The notes beneath the pieces are model-generated. The model had not been told where the DNA came from, did no database searches, and saw only the letters and a program-made list of their open reading frames with translations. This document shows positions 54,194-64,000 of a DNA stretch of 64,000 nt, one piece after another. The stretch comes from a bacterium (GTDB lineage Bacteria; Verrucomicrobiota; Kiritimatiellia; CAIKKV01; CAIYGI01), in assembly GCA_025360745.1 (NCBI GenBank), contig JANYBP010000011.1:1-64000 (forward strand), given 5' to 3'. The first letter of the stretch is position 1. Every line of letters starts with the position of its first letter. The position numbers were made by a program, and so were the translations under genes.

Positions 54194-54515
54194 TTTCCGG
54201 GCCACCACGGTGGCGGTTTGCGAATCGGGCGAACCTGATTTTTCACCACCAAGAGCGTGAAGACCACGAAGGGAATTGAAGTTGAACAGTTGCCGGCTTC
54301 CCCGTCTCTTTTAACGTTGAGCGTTGAGCGTTCGATGTTGACTGTTCGAAGTTCGCCTGCCACCTGCCACCTTCTTCCGGCCTCCAAAAAAACCCTACAA
54401 TTTCCCTCGATATTATTTGACCGATGGTGGGGCGAAGTGTTGAATAGTGTCACGAAGTGTAGTACGGGGGTTCAACAGAGTGACACAGCAAGGTCAAGCG
54501 ATTGCGGGTGAAGGG

Positions 54516-54959
54516 ATGGCGCAAGGCATCTTCGCCAGTGTGTTCACGCATATGTTGGACCCCAAGCGGCGGCTCACGATCCCGTCGGAGTGGCGGGATT
54601 GCGTGGGTCAGCCGAACAGTGTCTATGTTTTGCGGGGTTTGGGCGAGCCCTATCTGACGGTTTATCCGGCGCGGGAGATGATTCTCAAGCTGGACAAACT
54701 GCGCCAGCAGTCGATCGCCGATCCGCGGGTGCGGGCGCTGGCGCGGGCGCTGGGTTCGCAGTCGCAGATGGCGACCTGGGATACGCAGGGGCGCATCCGG
54801 GTCAACGATGAATTGCTGGCCTACGCCAAGATCGACGGCGAGGTCAAGCTGGTTGGGGCGCTGCAGTATTTCGAATTGTGGAGTCCGGCGTTGTGGAGCG
54901 CGGCCGAGCGGCGCAGCGATGTCGATATCGCGGATGTCGCGCAGCACATCGGCTTGTAG
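54516..54959 (+). CDS. mraZ: Transcriptional regulator MraZ
   Basis: 'FTHMLDPKRRLTIPSEWR', 'WDTQGRIRVNDELLAYAKIDGEVKLVGALQYFELWSP'. Confidence 0.92.
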   Translation: MAQGIFASVFTHMLDPKRRLTIPSEWRDCVGQPNSVYVLRGLGEPYLTVYPAREMILKLDKLRQQSIADPRVRALARALGSQSQMATWDTQGRIRVNDELLAYAKIDGEVKLVGALQYFELWSPALWSAAERRSDVDIADVAQHIGL

Positions 54960-55181
54960 TGGCGGCGTTGTCGATGGTGACGAGCATGCAAACGGGAAAA
55001 TTCATGGAAGTGAATCAGGCGCTGTCGGGCGGCGTATTGCGGCATGGCTGGTTGCGCTGGCTGTGGTTTGGCTGGCGGCCGCGCGGCTCCGCGGGGTACC
55101 AGTATGTGGGACACGCGGGTCTGCGTTTAAGCGGCGCCTTTCTCGACCGCGGGCCGGGCCATGCGATTCGTTTGCGCGACC

Positions 55182-56105
55182 ATGCACCAATCCGTTCTAG
55201 CCGCTGAAGTCGTGGCCGGGCTGGACCCGCGTCCGGGCGGTATCTTCGCCGACGGGACGGCCGGGAGCGGCGGGCACGCAGCGCTGCTGGCGGAGCGGAT
55301 CGGTCCGGCGGGCCGCTTGCTGGTGATCGACCGCGACGCGGAGGCGCTGGAACGGGCGCGCGGGCGGTTGCGGCCGTACGGGACCGCCTGCGTGTTTGTG
55401 CATGGCAACTACGGCGATCTGGCCGCGCACGCGGCGGCCAACGGGTTTGAGGCGTTGGATGGCGTATTGCTGGATCTGGGGGTGTCCTCGGATCAACTGG
55501 ACACGCCGGAACGGGGGTTCAGTTTCCGCGCCGACGGTCCGCTGGATATGCGCATGGATGCGAGCGGCGGACCGACGGCGGCGGAACTGGTGAACCGCGC
55601 GCCGGAGCGGGAACTGGCGGAGTGGTTTGCGCTTTACGGCGAGGAGCCGGCGGCGCGGCGGATCGCCCGCGCGATCGTCGCGGCCCGCGCGGCGGCGCCG
55701 TTGACGCGGACGGCGGATCTGGCGGCCGTGGTGGCGCGCGCCAAAGGCGGGCGGCGCGGCCGGATCGATCCGGCCACGCAGGTCTTTCAAGCCCTGCGGA
55801 TTGTGGTGAACGGGGAACTTGACGCCATCGATCGGGGACTGGAGGCGGCCTTGACGCTGTTGCGGCCGGGCGGCCGGCTGGCGGTGATCAGCTTCCACAG
55901 TCTGGAAGACCGGCGGGTCAAAGTCTGCTTCCGGCGCCATCTGGGGCGATGGGAAGCCTTGGAAGCGGGCGGCGAAAGTTGGATCGGCGAAAAGCCTGTG
56001 GTGACGTTATTGACGCGGAAGCCCGTGATGGCTGGCGCGACCGAGGTGGCGGATAACCCGCGCGCACGGTCCGCCAAGTTACGCGTGGCGGCGCGCAAGG
56101 AGTGA
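55182..56105 (+). CDS. rsmH: 16S rRNA (cytosine1402-N4)-methyltransferase
   Basis: 'HQSVLAAEVVAGLDPRPGGIFADGTAGSGGHAALLAERI', 'DGVLLDLGVSSDQLDTPERGFSFRADGPLDMRMD', 'ATQVFQALRIVVNGELDAIDRGLEAAL', 'VISFHSLEDRRVK'. Confidence 0.97.
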   Translation: MHQSVLAAEVVAGLDPRPGGIFADGTAGSGGHAALLAERIGPAGRLLVIDRDAEALERARGRLRPYGTACVFVHGNYGDLAAHAAANGFEALDGVLLDLGVSSDQLDTPERGFSFRADGPLDMRMDASGGPTAAELVNRAPERELAEWFALYGEEPAARRIARAIVAARAAAPLTRTADLAAVVARAKGGRRGRIDPATQVFQALRIVVNGELDAIDRGLEAALTLLRPGGRLAVISFHSLEDRRVKVCFRRHLGRWEALEAGGESWIGEKPVVTLLTRKPVMAGATEVADNPRARSAKLRVAARKE

Positions 56106-56111
56106 AAAATT

Positions 56112-56507
56112 ATGGCACGCAACCGTCGACATGTCGAATCGCGCGCGGGCTCCGTGCCCGCATCGGTGGTGGCGCTGATCGTGGCTCTGGTCGCGGTGGG
56201 GCTGGGCTATGTCGGGATCGAGACCAAGTGCGACACGCTGGGCCGTGAAATCAAGCGCTTCGAGGCGGAAGGCACGCGCTTGCGTGAGGATCTGAGCCGC
56301 AACCGCGGCGAGTGGGCGAGGCTTTCCGCCACCGGCAGCGTGGAGGCGGCGCTGAAAACGCACGGCCTCGTGATGAGCTGGCCGGCGGCCGACCAGGTGG
56401 TGCGTTTGGGCGGCGAGGCGCGGGGCGCGCTCGCGTCGCGCACGCCGCGTTCCGTCGAGACCCCGTCGTCCCACCTGCGGACGGGTGTGGTCATGGCCCA
56501 TGACTGA
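56112..56507 (+). CDS. ftsL: FtsL-like cell division protein
   Basis: Small single-TM, coiled-coil ORF between rsmH and ftsI; call is mainly positional. Confidence 0.65.
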   Translation: MARNRRHVESRAGSVPASVVALIVALVAVGLGYVGIETKCDTLGREIKRFEAEGTRLREDLSRNRGEWARLSATGSVEAALKTHGLVMSWPAADQVVRLGGEARGALASRTPRSVETPSSHLRTGVVMAHD

Positions 56508-58233
56508 AACCGGCAGGCGCGTTCGGCTGCTGCTGGTCACGGCCGCCCTGGGACTGGCTCTGACCGGACTCGTCGTCCAGCTTGTGCACCTGCATCTCTG
56601 GGGTAAACCGGAGCAGCGCGAGAATGTCGTTCAGGACCGGATTCTCCACGAACCCATCCGCGTCCACCGCGGCATGATCGTGGACAACAGCACGCCCAGT
56701 ATGATCGTGGCCATTGACTGGCCCTGCGTGGACGTATGCGCCGACCCAAAATTGATCCAGCTTACCAACCGCGTGCCGCAGGTGGCGCGTGAACTGGCGA
56801 GGATTCTGCCGGAACTGGACGCGCTTGCGCTGGAAAAGCGGCTGCGGCTTCCCGACCGCCGCTTCGAGCGCGTGGCCCAGCAGGTCACGACGAATGTGGC
56901 CGCGCAACTGGCGTCGTTAAAACTGCCCGGCGTTTTCACAACCCCGGTCGTCGTGCGCCGCTACCCGCAGGGCGCGACGCTTTGCCATGTGCTCGGATAC
57001 GTCAACGCCGAGGGCGTCGGCAGCGCCGGACTGGAACAGTCGCTGGAAAGTCTGCTACGCGGCAAACCCGGGGAGATCGTCGGCTTTCGCGACGGCCGCC
57101 GGCACGAACTGACCGACCGCCGCATCGCCGAAACGGCCGCCACCAACGGCGCCGATGTCGCGCTGACGATCGACCAGCAGTTGCAGTTCATGGTCGAGCG
57201 CGCGCTCGACACGGTCATGGAACGGCACCATCCCGACGCCGCCTGGGCCATCGTCGAGCGGGTCAAAACCGGCGAGATCCTGGCCATGGCCTGCCGTCCC
57301 AACTACGACCCCAACAATTTCCGCGCCAGCACCGACCTGCAGCGCATGAACCGCGCGATCGCCAACATCTACGAACCCGGTTCGACCTTCAAAGTCGCGA
57401 CCATTGTCGCGGCGCTCGACCAGGGCGTGGTTACTCCGGAGACCCCCGTCGACTGCGAGAACGGCCGCTGGTGGTACCAGGGCAAAGTCCTGCGCGATAC
57501 GCACTCCTACGGGGTGCTGAGCGTGGCCGATGTGCTGCAGAAGTCCAGCAACATCGGCGCGGCCAAGATCGCCATCGTGCTTGGCAATGCGCAACTGGCG
57601 GCCTATCTGAAGGCCTTACATTTCGGACATCGCCTGGGCATAGACCTGCCCGGCGAGGAGGGCGGCATCGTGCATCCGCTGGCCGAATGGAGTTCGATCA
57701 GTTCCAGCCGCATCGCCATGGGGCAGGGAGTGGCGGTCACTTCGCTGCAGATGCTCGGACTGATTTGCTGCATCGCGAACGGCGGCGCTTACATGAAACC
57801 CTACGTTGTCCGCAATGTCACCGCGGATGACGGCAATAAAGTTCGGCGGGAGAATCGTCCCTGCGTGCTCGCCAATCCGATCAAAGCGGCGACCGCGGTC
57901 ATGATGCGCGAAATGCTGGTCCGCGTGACCGAGCCGGGCGGGACCGGTTTGCGGGCGGCGGTGCCGGGCTATCGTGTCGCCGGTAAAACCGGCACCGGGC
58001 AGAAGGTGATCGGCGGAAACTATTCGGAAACCGACTACATGTCATCCTTTGTGGGTTTCCTGCCGGCGGACAAGCCGGAAATCGGACTGATTGTGGTGGT
58101 GGACAATCCGCAACCCCTGCACACGGGCGGCATGGTCGCCGCCCCGGCTTTTTCCGAAATCGCCGAACAGGCCATGCGCTATCTCGATGTGCCGAAGTCG
58201 CCGCCGCCCTTGGTCATGGCGGGACGGCCTTGA
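56500..58233 (+). CDS. ftsI: Peptidoglycan transpeptidase (FtsI/PBP3-type)
   Basis: 'YEPGSTFKVATIVAAL' (SxxK), 'KSSNIGAAKIAI' (SxN), 'AGKTGTGQK' (KTG). Confidence 0.95.
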   Translation: MTETGRRVRLLLVTAALGLALTGLVVQLVHLHLWGKPEQRENVVQDRILHEPIRVHRGMIVDNSTPSMIVAIDWPCVDVCADPKLIQLTNRVPQVARELARILPELDALALEKRLRLPDRRFERVAQQVTTNVAAQLASLKLPGVFTTPVVVRRYPQGATLCHVLGYVNAEGVGSAGLEQSLESLLRGKPGEIVGFRDGRRHELTDRRIAETAATNGADVALTIDQQLQFMVERALDTVMERHHPDAAWAIVERVKTGEILAMACRPNYDPNNFRASTDLQRMNRAIANIYEPGSTFKVATIVAALDQGVVTPETPVDCENGRWWYQGKVLRDTHSYGVLSVADVLQKSSNIGAAKIAIVLGNAQLAAYLKALHFGHRLGIDLPGEEGGIVHPLAEWSSISSSRIAMGQGVAVTSLQMLGLICCIANGGAYMKPYVVRNVTADDGNKVRRENRPCVLANPIKAATAVMMREMLVRVTEPGGTGLRAAVPGYRVAGKTGTGQKVIGGNYSETDYMSSFVGFLPADKPEIGLIVVVDNPQPLHTGGMVAAPAFSEIAEQAMRYLDVPKSPPPLVMAGRP

Positions 58234-58243
58234 GAGACTCACG

Positions 58244-59725
58244 ATGAAACTTGACGTTATCGTACGCGCGCTGACCGGGGTTATCGCGGTCAAGGGTTCG
58301 CTCGGCGCCGAGATCGTCGGCATCGCCTACGATTCCCGGCAGGTGCGCCGCGGCTATCTTTTCGTCGCCATGCCCGGCGCCCGCGACGATGGCTGGGCCT
58401 ATGTCGCCGACGCCGTCGAGCGCGGCGCGGCCGCCATCCTTTCGACGCATCCGGCCTGCCCCCGGCACGATTTGACCTGCATCCATGTGCGCGACGTGCG
58501 CCAGGCGCTGGCCGAGGCCGCCGCCGCTTTTCATCGCTTCCCCGCCGCCAGGCTGCGCGTGCTGGGCATCACCGGCACCAACGGCAAGACCACCTCGGCA
58601 TTTCTGCTGCGCCGCATTCTCGCCGATGCGGGCTGGGCGCCGGGGCTGATCGGCACCGTGCAGTACGAAATCGGCGCGCGCGTGATCCCGGCGCAACGCA
58701 CCACGCCGGAATCTGCGGACCTGCAGGCGCTCTTCGACCAGATGCTGCAGGCCGGCTGCCGCAGTGTGGTTATGGAAGCGTCGTCGCACGCCCTCGACCA
58801 GGGTCGCGTGCGGGGCATCGAGTTCGATGCCGCGCTCTTCACCAATCTGACGCGCGATCATCTGGACTACCATTCCAGCATGGAGTCCTACTTCGACGCC
58901 AAGTGCCGCCTCTTTACGGAACTCGGGCACGGCGCCCGTCAGGCCGTGGCCGTGATCAACTCGGACGACCCCTACGGCGCGCGCCTGGCCGCGCTGCCGC
59001 TGGCCGCCAGGGTTGTAACCTGCGGCATCGCCGACCCAGCGGCGCAGGTGCGCGCGCTGGAGATTGCGCTGGCACCCTCCGGCAGTCGTTTCATTATCGC
59101 GACCCCCGCCGGCCGCTACCCGATCGCTTTGCGCCTGCTGGGCCGCTTCAACGTGCATAACGCGCTCGGCGCCTTCGCCGCGGCCACCGCGCTCGGGATT
59201 GCGCCGGAGCTTGTCGCGCGGGCGCTGGGCGCGGTGGCGGCGGTGCCGGGCCGCATGGAGCCGATTTCCAACCGGCGCGGACTGCACATTTTTGTGGACT
59301 ACGCGCACACCGACGACGCCTTGAACAAGGCCTTGACGACATTGAACGAATTGCGCGGCGGGCAGCCCGGCCGCATGATCCTGGTCTTCGGCTGCGGCGG
59401 CAATCGCGACACCGTCAAGCGCGTCCTGATGGGCGCCGTGGCCCGGCAATTGGCCGACCATGTCGTGCTGACATCGGACAATCCACGCAAGGAAGATCCG
59501 CTGGCGATCATTGCGGCGATTCGCGCCGGTTATGGCGAAGGTGGATCGTGCGAAATCGAGCCCGACCGCGCCAGGGCCATCCGTCGCGCGCTGGCGCTGG
59601 CGCGTGCCGGCGACTGCGTGTTGATCGCCGGCAAGGGACACGAAACGACGCAGGAATTCGCCAACACGATCGTGCCCTTCGACGACCGCGAAGAAGCGCG
59701 CCGCGCGCTCCAGGAACCGGGGTAA
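58244..59725 (+). CDS. murE: UDP-MurNAc-L-Ala-D-Glu:amino acid ligase
   Basis: 'ITGTNGKTTSAFLLRRIL', 'TTPESADLQALFDQMLQAGCRSVVMEASSHALDQGRV', 'DNPRKEDPLAIIAAI'. Confidence 0.97.
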   Translation: MKLDVIVRALTGVIAVKGSLGAEIVGIAYDSRQVRRGYLFVAMPGARDDGWAYVADAVERGAAAILSTHPACPRHDLTCIHVRDVRQALAEAAAAFHRFPAARLRVLGITGTNGKTTSAFLLRRILADAGWAPGLIGTVQYEIGARVIPAQRTTPESADLQALFDQMLQAGCRSVVMEASSHALDQGRVRGIEFDAALFTNLTRDHLDYHSSMESYFDAKCRLFTELGHGARQAVAVINSDDPYGARLAALPLAARVVTCGIADPAAQVRALEIALAPSGSRFIIATPAGRYPIALRLLGRFNVHNALGAFAAATALGIAPELVARALGAVAAVPGRMEPISNRRGLHIFVDYAHTDDALNKALTTLNELRGGQPGRMILVFGCGGNRDTVKRVLMGAVARQLADHVVLTSDNPRKEDPLAIIAAIRAGYGEGGSCEIEPDRARAIRRALALARAGDCVLIAGKGHETTQEFANTIVPFDDREEARRALQEPG

Positions 59726-59729
59726 TGTC

Positions 59730-61124
59730 ATGCCGTTATGGACCCCGGAAATTCTGGCCGCCTGGAGCGGCGGCACATGGCGCCGGGCACCGCCCGCGCG
59801 TCGGCTGAACGGGGTCACTCACGACACCCGTGCCATCCAGCCGGGCGCCTTGTTTGTCGCTTTGCGCGGCGCACGCACCGATGGGCATGCTTTTCTTGGC
59901 CAGGCCTTTGCGCTGGGCGCCGCTGGCGCCATCGTCGCGCGCGATGCCCGGCTGCCCGAGCCTTGGCCGGGTCCGCTGCTGGTGGTGGACGATCCGCTGG
60001 CCGCGCTGGGCCGCATCGCCGCCGGGCACCGCCTGACGCTGACCGGCGCTGTGGTGACCGGCGTCACCGGCAGCGTCGGCAAGACCACCGTCAAGGAACT
60101 GCTCGCCGCCATGCTCGCCGCGGCCGGTCCCACCGCCCGCAGCCGCGGCAACTGGAATAACGAGCTCGGCCTGCCGCTCAGTCTGCTGGCCGTGGAATCC
60201 ACCGATCGCGCCGCCGTGCTGGAGGTGGGCATCAGCCACCCCGGCGAGATGGCGCCGCTGGCCGCGCTGCTGCGTCCCGACTGGGCCGTGATCTCGACCA
60301 TCGCCCCGGTGCATAGCGAGTTTTTTAAAAATATGGATGCGATCGCCCGCGAGAAGGCGCTGCTGTTCGAAACGCTGAGCGGCCGCGGCGCGGCGGTTCT
60401 CGACAGCGACGGCGAGTGGGCCGCCATGCTGGCCCGCTCCGCGAGCGGGCGTGTAGTGACAATTTCCCGCCGCGATCGGACGGCCCATTATGTGGGCGCG
60501 CCGCCTGTGCGGCCCGGCGAACCGGCCAGCGTCTGCGAAACGGCCAGCGGCGAACGCTTCGCCTTCCATGCACCGCTGCCGGGCGATCATCATGTGACCA
60601 ATACCCTGCTGGCGATTGCCGCTGCCCGCGGACAGGGCCTGGCGTGGACGCAAATCGCAGCCGGCCTGGCGGCTTTTGTGGCGCCGCACATGCGCTGGGA
60701 GCAGCTCGATGTGGGCGGCGTGACGGTGATCAACGACGCCTATAACTCCAATCCGCTCAGCTTGGGCGCCGCGCTGCGCACCTATGCCGAAACAGCCGTG
60801 GCGGGCGGCCGCTGGCTGGTGCTGGGCGACATGCTGGAACTTGGCGTGCAGGCGGAAGCCATGCATGAAGAGATCGGCCGCCAGACGGCGGCGGGGCACT
60901 GGGCCGGACTGATCGCGCTGGGTCCGCTGGCCGCGCGGCTGGCCGCGGGCGCCCGCGCTGCCGGCGCGCGCTTCCCTGTGCTAGAGTGTGCCGACCACGC
61001 CGAGGCCGCCCAGGTCCTCGCCGGTCGCGTCCGTCCGGGCGATGCGGTCTTGCTAAAAGCCTCCCGTGGCATGAAACTGGAAGAAGTGCTGGTCGAGTTC
61101 CAGAAAGCGAAGAGTGAACAGTAA
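59730..61124 (+). CDS. murF: UDP-MurNAc-tripeptide--D-Ala-D-Ala ligase
   Basis: 'VTGSVGKTTVKELLAAML', 'NWNNELGLPLSLL', 'INDAYNSNPLSLGAALRTYAE', 'VLGDMLELGVQAEAMHEEIG'. Confidence 0.97.
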   Translation: MPLWTPEILAAWSGGTWRRAPPARRLNGVTHDTRAIQPGALFVALRGARTDGHAFLGQAFALGAAGAIVARDARLPEPWPGPLLVVDDPLAALGRIAAGHRLTLTGAVVTGVTGSVGKTTVKELLAAMLAAAGPTARSRGNWNNELGLPLSLLAVESTDRAAVLEVGISHPGEMAPLAALLRPDWAVISTIAPVHSEFFKNMDAIAREKALLFETLSGRGAAVLDSDGEWAAMLARSASGRVVTISRRDRTAHYVGAPPVRPGEPASVCETASGERFAFHAPLPGDHHVTNTLLAIAAARGQGLAWTQIAAGLAAFVAPHMRWEQLDVGGVTVINDAYNSNPLSLGAALRTYAETAVAGGRWLVLGDMLELGVQAEAMHEEIGRQTAAGHWAGLIALGPLAARLAAGARAAGARFPVLECADHAEAAQVLAGRVRPGDAVLLKASRGMKLEEVLVEFQKAKSEQ

Positions 61125-61145
61125 ACAGTGAACAGTGAAGAACGG
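61113..61145. repeat. Degenerate tandem repeat GTGAACAGTAAACAGTGAACAGTGAAGAACGG
   Basis: Repeated GTGAACA/GTAAACA words overlapping the end of murF. Confidence 0.65.
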
Positions 61146-61270
61146 AGAAGATTAATCGGTAAAGAGTTGACGACATATGGCATACTTGCGACATTCGATC
61201 TGGCAATCAACGAGATCAGGAGTTGAATTGAACAGAAACTCGCAAATGACGCCAGGAGAAGAGGCATACA

Positions 61271-61585
61271 GTGCTTGCGGATGAAATAAACAAAGCCGTT
61301 GACCTGCTCAAGCGGACCGCTCCGCGTGCCAGCATTATCCTGTTCGGGTCGCGTGCTCGCGGCGATGCGCGGCCGGACAGCGATGTGGACTTCCTGGTCG
61401 TTGAACCGGAAGTCAAGTCGCGGCGCCAGGAAATGGCGCGACTGGCACGGGTGCTTCGTCCGCTTCGTATTCCCGCCGATGTGCTGGTCTTCAGCCGCAA
61501 GGTGTTCGATGAGTGGTCTGGAATTCCCGGTACGGTCATCCATCGTGCCGCACGGGAGGGCAAGGTGTTACATGCCGCGGAATAG
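61271..61585 (+). CDS. Minimal nucleotidyltransferase (MNT) of an MNT-HEPN pair
   Basis: 'IILFGSRARGDARPDSDVDFLVVEPE' GSxR…DxD motif; GTG start with GGAGAAGAGG upstream. Confidence 0.92.
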   Translation: MLADEINKAVDLLKRTAPRASIILFGSRARGDARPDSDVDFLVVEPEVKSRRQEMARLARVLRPLRIPADVLVFSRKVFDEWSGIPGTVIHRAAREGKVLHAAE

Positions 61586-61970
61586 TCTCTTCCTGCTGCT
61601 GTTGCGGAAAGCGGATCAAGACCGTTACATGCTCGACAAACTCGTTGCCGACGATGCCGCGCCGATCGAGGTGTTCGGGTTTCACGCGCAGCAAGCCACG
61701 GAGAAACTGATCAAGGCCGTCTTGGTCATACACGGCATCGAGTATGGCCGCACACACCGTCTGGCGGAACTAGCCGACCTGGCCGGCGACCATGGGATAC
61801 AGTTGCCGGATGTGGTCGAGCCCCTAGTCGATCTCACGCCCTATGCGGTGGAGTTTCGCTATGACGCCGCACCCGATGATGAGTGCGATGATTTGGACAA
61901 ACCAAAGATTAGGGATCAAATTGAATCGCTGCGTGCGTGGGTTCTGGAGCATGTGAAGGAACAGGGATGA
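61572..61970 (+). CDS. HEPN-domain protein of an MNT-HEPN pair
   Basis: 'FHAQQATEKLIKAVLVIHGIEYGRTHRLAELADLA', 'YAVEFRYDAAPDDECD'; overlaps the MNT gene. Confidence 0.9.
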   Translation: MPRNSLFLLLLRKADQDRYMLDKLVADDAAPIEVFGFHAQQATEKLIKAVLVIHGIEYGRTHRLAELADLAGDHGIQLPDVVEPLVDLTPYAVEFRYDAAPDDECDDLDKPKIRDQIESLRAWVLEHVKEQG

Positions 61971-62209
61971 AAGACTATCGCATTCTCCTTGTTATCGTCC
62001 TGCCATATATCAACTGGCGATAGTCTGATTTTCCATTGTCGCGAACGAAGTAATGGGGCTTGCATGGCGTGAGTGTGCAGATTGAACGGGTCCAGCGGAC
62101 TCTGAAAACAGACCGTGGACATGGTCGGCTGGTTGCAACGGACTTTGAAAGGGATGCGCTAATGCTTGATTATAGGGTTGGTGCGAAGGCGGACACCCCG
62201 CAGGCCGCG

Positions 62210-62470
62210 TTCGGACGCCAGGCGGCAGCGAGTCCTTGGACCGGATTGATCGCGCGCGGTTCTCTGCCCGCGCGGCTGGCCGAGTGCGACCGCTTCTCCG
62301 GTGCGCGCCTCCCTATGCTAGACTGCACCACCAACACCGCTGCCCAAGCCCTCGCTGAACGCGCCCGTCCGGGCGATGCCGTGTTGTTAAAAGTTTCCCA
62401 TGGCATGAAACTCGATGACGTACTGTCCGCGTTCCGCGGGGGCGGAGGTCAGAAGGCGGTGAACGGATGA
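62210..62470 (+). pseudogene. Diverged second copy of the murF 3' end
   Basis: 'FGRQAAASPWTGLIARGSLPARLAECDRFSGARLPMLDCTTNTAAQALAERARPGDAVLLKVSHGMKLDDVLSAFR' aligns to the C-terminus of MurF at 61124; lies inside ORF 62060-62470. Confidence 0.88.
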
Positions 62471-62612
62471 AGGTGACATTGTGCAGAGACAGAAATGATG
62501 CCCAACAACACGCCGTGCCACTAGTGGTTGTCCGGCGGGGCAAGTTGAGGGTTAGCGCGGTGGTTGAACTTGAAGAGCAAGTCATCGCTTGGAACGCAAA
62601 ACTTCGAGGCGA

Positions 62613-63434
62613 ATGAAACCAACCAACCAGTGCGCTTCTCTTCGCGACTATATTGTTGGATTCGTAGACTTGCTAGGACAGCGAGACCTCTTCATCAATC
62701 AATCTCGCATGCCGCAGTTTGCCACGGAGGACGAGCGGTCTCGATTTATGAGCAATGCTCGTGATTCCGTTGGCGTTGCAATCGGTTTGCAGGACATGTG
62801 TCGCAACATTGTCGATAACTACAACAAGCTCTTGCAATCCAACACGCGTCAGATTGTTTTACCAGCCCTGCTGAAGTATCAATGCTGGTCAGATGGTTTT
62901 GTGTACTTTGCCGAGGTAGACGATGACCCGCAATCAACCCACCTGAAGAATGCCTTCTTGCTACTTGCTTCGGTCGGCACTCTCTGTCTTCTTGGACTTG
63001 CCAATGGTAGGCCACTCAGAGGGGGTATTGACATAGCGTGGGCAGTCGAGGCTCGCGAGAATGAAATATACGGATGTGCTGTTGCAAAGGCATATGAACT
63101 CGAAAACGATATGGCAAATTATCCGCGAATTGTAGTTGGCGGCAAGGTGTTGGAGTATTTCAGACACCACGCGAACAGTGTCAACAAGGACAACCGTAAG
63201 CATGCCGAAATCGCAGCCGGTCTCATTGCCAAAGATACAGATGGTCAATTGATCGTTGACTATTTGGGTGATACGTATCGCGCACATTATGGTGGTCCCG
63301 TTTTTGAAGAGGCGCGATTGAAGGCGGTGCAGTTTGCCACGGAGTCACTCGCGCGCTGGGAAAGAGAAGAAAATGGCAAACTTGTTGCAAAGTACGACAA
63401 GTTGGTGCGCTATTTCGATCAACAGAAGGCATGA
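62613..63434 (+). CDS. Hypothetical protein, possible class III cyclase-like fold
   Basis: 'YIVGFVDLLGQRD…WSDGFVYF…GRPLRGGIDIAWAVEARENEIYGCAVAKAYELENDMANYPRIVVG' pattern. Confidence 0.55.
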   Translation: MKPTNQCASLRDYIVGFVDLLGQRDLFINQSRMPQFATEDERSRFMSNARDSVGVAIGLQDMCRNIVDNYNKLLQSNTRQIVLPALLKYQCWSDGFVYFAEVDDDPQSTHLKNAFLLLASVGTLCLLGLANGRPLRGGIDIAWAVEARENEIYGCAVAKAYELENDMANYPRIVVGGKVLEYFRHHANSVNKDNRKHAEIAAGLIAKDTDGQLIVDYLGDTYRAHYGGPVFEEARLKAVQFATESLARWEREENGKLVAKYDKLVRYFDQQKA

Positions 63435-63859
63435 AAGTTCAACAATGAGAGGATTTCAAACGCCTTCATGCGACATAACTCCCGCTCCGTGCTTTAGTCC
63501 CTTACGGCTTGAATCAATCGCAAGATGGTAATCATTTGAAACGTTTTGGTTCCGGCTATGCCGGGTTAGGAGTGGTGTTAGCAGAATACTGGAAATCGTG
63601 GAAGGTGAATTACCGCTGGGTACGGAGTGGTTCATACTGGACTAAGGCCGAAGCCTGAACCGAGAACTTGGCCGGACTGGGGTAGCGTGGTGATACCGGT
63701 AATACGCCAAGAAAGACGCCGAACCGGCAAGAAACTGAAAAAGGAAGCAGAGTAGCGAAGTTGAGGTTTTGGGTTGAAGCCGTTTCGGGCTCGGCGTGGG
63801 AATGGCGCAAGGAATGGAAGAAGGGCGCAAAGTAACCCCATCGTAACGAAAGGCGCCAG

Positions 63860-64000
63860 ATGAAGAAGTATGCAACTATACATGAAGCTGTAGAAAAAGG
63901 CGATCTCGCCGACATTCACTGGCATTTACAAAATGGTGCGGACTTGAAGGCATGGGACAAGAACGGTAGTACGCCATTGATAACGGCTGCGAACAATCGC
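63860..64000 (+). CDS. Ankyrin-repeat protein, truncated by the window edge
   Basis: ATG 63860: 'MKKYATIHEAVEKGDLADIHWHLQNGADLKAWDKNGSTPLITAANNR…'. Confidence 0.7.
   Translation, partial: MKKYATIHEAVEKGDLADIHWHLQNGADLKAWDKNGSTPLITAANNR

Follow-up and report, generated by a model that had tools for sequence, protein, structure and literature searches.

A probable non-functional fragment of the murF 3' end in a composite insert between murF and mraY of a bacterial genome

Downstream of an intact murF gene, the genome studied here carries a second, diverged murF 3' end, which is probably a non-functional gene fragment derived from a partial tandem duplication or from sister-species uptake and drifting since. 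The fragment belongs to a composite insert. The analysed window of 64,000 nucleotides is part of a 108-kb contig (C47) of the present genome (G000), and G001 is the sole other genome of the genus and family in the comparison. G001 is collinear with window positions 54356-61129 at 93% identity, and collinearity resumes with mraY at contig position 64600. Therefore, an insert of ~3.47 kb, from 61130 to ~64600, parts murF from mraY in the present genome. In G001, the two genes lie 173 bp apart, and this uninterrupted junction represents the empty site. The insertion that was placed at the murF 3' end from the sequence alone is thus borne out between murF and mraY by ~3.47 kb that the same-genus relative lacks. 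The insert contains an MNT-HEPN pair, the murF fragment, an orphan gene, a copy of a dispersed repeat and an ankyrin gene (Table 1).

Table 1. Features of the murF region and of the insert (positions are those of the window unless indicated)
Feature	Position	Strand	Basis
Intact murF, 464 aa	59730..61124	+	TIGR01143 363.6 bits (cutoff 288.6); residues 1-464 91% identical (aa) to G001
Segment of intact murF matched by the remnant	60841..61101	+	blastn 75%, E=5e-47
TGAACAG-type heptamer tract at the left insert edge, overlapping the murF stop	61115..61140	+	Pattern search; last position collinear with G001 is 61129
MNT nucleotidyltransferase gene, 104 aa, with GSX10DXD motif	61271..61585	+	PF01909 E=1.7e-13; NF047752 MntA below cutoff
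HEPN-domain gene, 131 aa	61575..61970	+	PF05168 E=9.6e-15
Putative murF 3'-end remnant, ~86 codons	62178..62435	+	blastn, site patterns, codon model
Orphan gene, 281 aa, unassigned family	62589..63434	+	Homologs in 7 other genomes of 346
Copy of 77-bp dispersed repeat	63494..63571	+	15 or more copies in the genome, 91-97% identity, sharp ends
Start of ankyrin-repeat gene	63860..64000 (continues to contig position 64444, past the window)	+	ORF; ankyrin-type matches

The remnant is identical to the intact murF 3' end at 195 of 261 bases (blastn of 60701-61300 against 61901-62700), with a single 3-bp gap, and the starts of the two segments are 1337 bp apart. The local alignment scores 198, and 200 shuffles reach 33 at most. 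The diverged second 3' end described in the sequence-only reading is therefore real and more similar to murF than unrelated ORFs would be; the protein alignment given there is correct, and ORFs and Pfam matches confirm the MNT and HEPN genes placed between the two copies. Solid homology has its left edge at ~62178. Homology may continue for ~100 bp upstream, across small indels, but support for this is weak, as 6 of 200 shuffles score as well. Downstream of 62435, where 23 of 200 shuffles did as well, no extension reached significance. Neither the P-loop nor the DAYNSNP motif, both of which precede the duplicated part of murF, is present in the remnant, which therefore cannot be a ligase. Among 17 genomes of the order, only the present one has a second murF C-terminal match. 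A tandem full-length murF duplication in relatives, which had been named as a competing account, is thus not the explanation.

Partial gene duplications and pseudogene fragments in bacteria consist of a truncated second copy by an intact gene, without essential motifs and drifting. The murF remnant resembles them as a truncated copy beside an intact one, with the essential motifs gone and the sequence drifting. It differs in that a mobile-looking MNT-HEPN pair separates it from its parent. Genomic islands in the 3' ends of protein genes show another arrangement, in which an intact gene is followed by inserted DNA and then by a 3' fragment of the gene. Intact murF, inserted DNA and a murF 3' fragment occur here in that order, and this resemblance would suggest that a site-specific element entered murF and put a 3' end of its own in place of the native one. 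However, the intact murF is collinear with G001 at 93% through its stop, and its 3' end matches that of G001 at 88% of nucleotides, against 92% for the rest of the gene. The intact murF thus retains its native 3' end, and the deviant copy is the downstream one. Because the intact 3' end is common to G001 and the remnant is not, the earlier proposal that a foreign 3' end replaced that of murF is not supported. In addition, the murF-mraY junction of G001 is uninterrupted, the two copies share no long identical att-like core or exact att repeat, and no integrase was found among the ORFs between them (MNT and HEPN only) or among the insert genes downstream of the remnant (the orphan and ankyrin genes). 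Entry of a site-specific element is therefore extremely improbable; that the intact 3' end is collinear with G001 already refutes it in large part.

The codon positions of the remnant point to relaxed constraint. Substitutions unique to the remnant are nearly even over codon positions 1, 2 and 3 (17/11/18), whereas changes at the third position strongly predominate in functional murF pairs of comparable identity (e.g. 10/10/35 and 16/9/39). In a three-taxon codon model, omega is 0.61 on the remnant branch and 0.11 on the two functional branches; the approximate 95% interval for the remnant (0.3-1.4) is wide because the estimate comes from 76 codons and one close relative only. Equality of omega between the remnant and the functional branches is rejected (2dlnL=8.0), and omega=1 for the remnant is not (1.5). 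In six functional control triples, equality was never rejected and omega=1 always was. These comparisons show that constraint on the remnant is relaxed, as judged from its codons, and the remnant is best read as a pseudogene fragment, since equality is rejected and neutrality is not. By a simple mixture, the loss of constraint may date to about the time when the two species of the genus separated.

Alternatively, the remnant might be part of a small functional protein, encoded at 62060-62470 or from an ATG at 62162. The reading frame is open from 62060 to a stop at 62470 (136 codons), and RPGDAVLLK and GMKLDDVL are conserved. The absence of stops is unremarkable, as 35% of simulations with random placement give none (P=0.35); the aligned part has one 3-bp indel, and so few indels are mildly surprising under neutral decay. 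Stops or frameshifts are frequent in pseudogene fragments, but a gene that truncation has already disabled need not have them. Against a functional protein stand the relaxed constraint, the lack of ligase motifs, the lack of a Pfam match at the gathering score and the occurrence in one genome only, which make it very improbable. A comparison of the remnant with solved structures gave no significant match. In the last 76 codons of the intact murF, changes specific to G000 fall 7 times at positions 1-2 and 4 times at position 3, and changes specific to G001 fall once at positions 1-2 and 12 times at position 3 (Fisher P=0.008). This difference hints that constraint on the 3' end of the intact G000 gene (60841-61124) is relaxed or has shifted.

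The kinship of the remnant bears on its origin. Its protein shares 58% of residues with murF of G001 and 53% with the resident murF; murF proteins of other families in the order reach 44% at most. In trees, the remnant forms a clade with the murF genes of G000 and G001, with support of 99/99 for protein and 95/97 for DNA, and sits on a long branch. Together, identities and trees show that the remnant comes from the murF lineage of this bacterium's own family. Of the sites that distinguish G000 from G001, the remnant shares 13 with the former and 11 with the latter; it therefore branched at or before the G000/G001 split and was not copied recently from the resident murF.

Recombination with a related species, the other route that had been suggested, is possible given this kinship within the family, and a partial tandem duplication fits equally well; the two account for the same sequence data and cannot be told apart. 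Under import, sister-species DNA with a murF 3' end, and perhaps flanking genes, would have been joined by recombination to the downstream side of the resident murF, and decay of the fragment would have followed. Its branching outside or at the G000/G001 split is consistent with this, and the omega of 0.61, which implies more constraint than pure neutrality, allows an initial functional period elsewhere. However, no donor was found: plasmids and phages gave no match, and elsewhere the best match lies within the genus. Import is a real possibility, if somewhat on the doubtful side.

In our preferred reading, which covers both routes, a second murF 3' end would have arisen by partial tandem duplication within the lineage, or a fragment would have been taken up from a sister species. 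This murF 3' fragment, uncoupled from the ligase gene, would then have drifted largely unconstrained since about the time when the two sequenced members of the genus diverged, and the MNT-HEPN genes now lie between the murF copies. That a recombination event took place, and in which order the insertions came about, is inferred. The remnant would be an ordinary decayed gene fragment in a strain-specific insert and matter little by itself.

Both edges of the insert fall in heptamer tracts. The left one overlaps the murF stop, and the right edge lies in a second tract at contig positions 64575-64593. The TGAACAS-type pattern has 140 matches genome-wide and none for the reversed control, in dispersed tracts with the units TGAACAG, TGAACAC and TGAACCC. 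With tracts at both edges, recombination at heptamer repeats is a plausible but unproven route of insertion. That such tracts serve in this lineage as joining sites, at which gene cassettes or fragments are inserted between genes, is distinctly unlikely. In Beggiatoaceae, a dispersed intergenic heptamer repeat, TAACTGA, has been described (PMC4679880), and slippage and rearrangement have been suggested for repeats of this kind. The tracts here are likewise short tandem heptanucleotide units spread over the genome; they differ in their unit (TGAACAG/TGAACAC) and in lying at both edges of an insert. Bacterial genomes are known to contain both truncated gene duplicates and heptanucleotide repeats, and no new mechanism is needed. 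A relative, G007, has a homologous MNT-HEPN pair (locus L074) with similar short tracts on either side.

The sequence-only reading had added that either of its two scenarios would make murF a hotspot of integration or recombination. Both genes share a contig in 47 other genomes of the class, and no more than 372 bp separates murF from mraY in any of these; the murF-mraY site as a general insertion hotspot is not supported. Our result corrects this idea of murF here, and it shows that the two genes, so close in 47 other genomes, can be parted by accessory genes. Among the listed titles and abstracts, none bore directly on murF/mraY insertions or displaced gene 3' ends.

The remaining parts of the insert show features of their own. 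In the HEPN protein, the canonical RX4-6H motif is seemingly absent by eye, with only RTH seen, so that activity as an RNase toxin is doubtful. The 281-aa orphan has no Pfam, NCBIfam or PADLOC match, and none of its homologs among the 346 genomes lies within the order. No Rfam match was found in 61000-64000, and no RNA family in the insert. Copies of the 77-bp repeat share the consensus TTAGTCCCTTACG...TTGGTTCCGGCTATGCCGGGTTAGG and have unrelated flanks, and 9 of 19 relatives also carry the 3' hairpin part of the repeat, TTCCGGCTATGCCGGGTTAGG. The repeat itself is possibly REP-like, or else a small mobile element.
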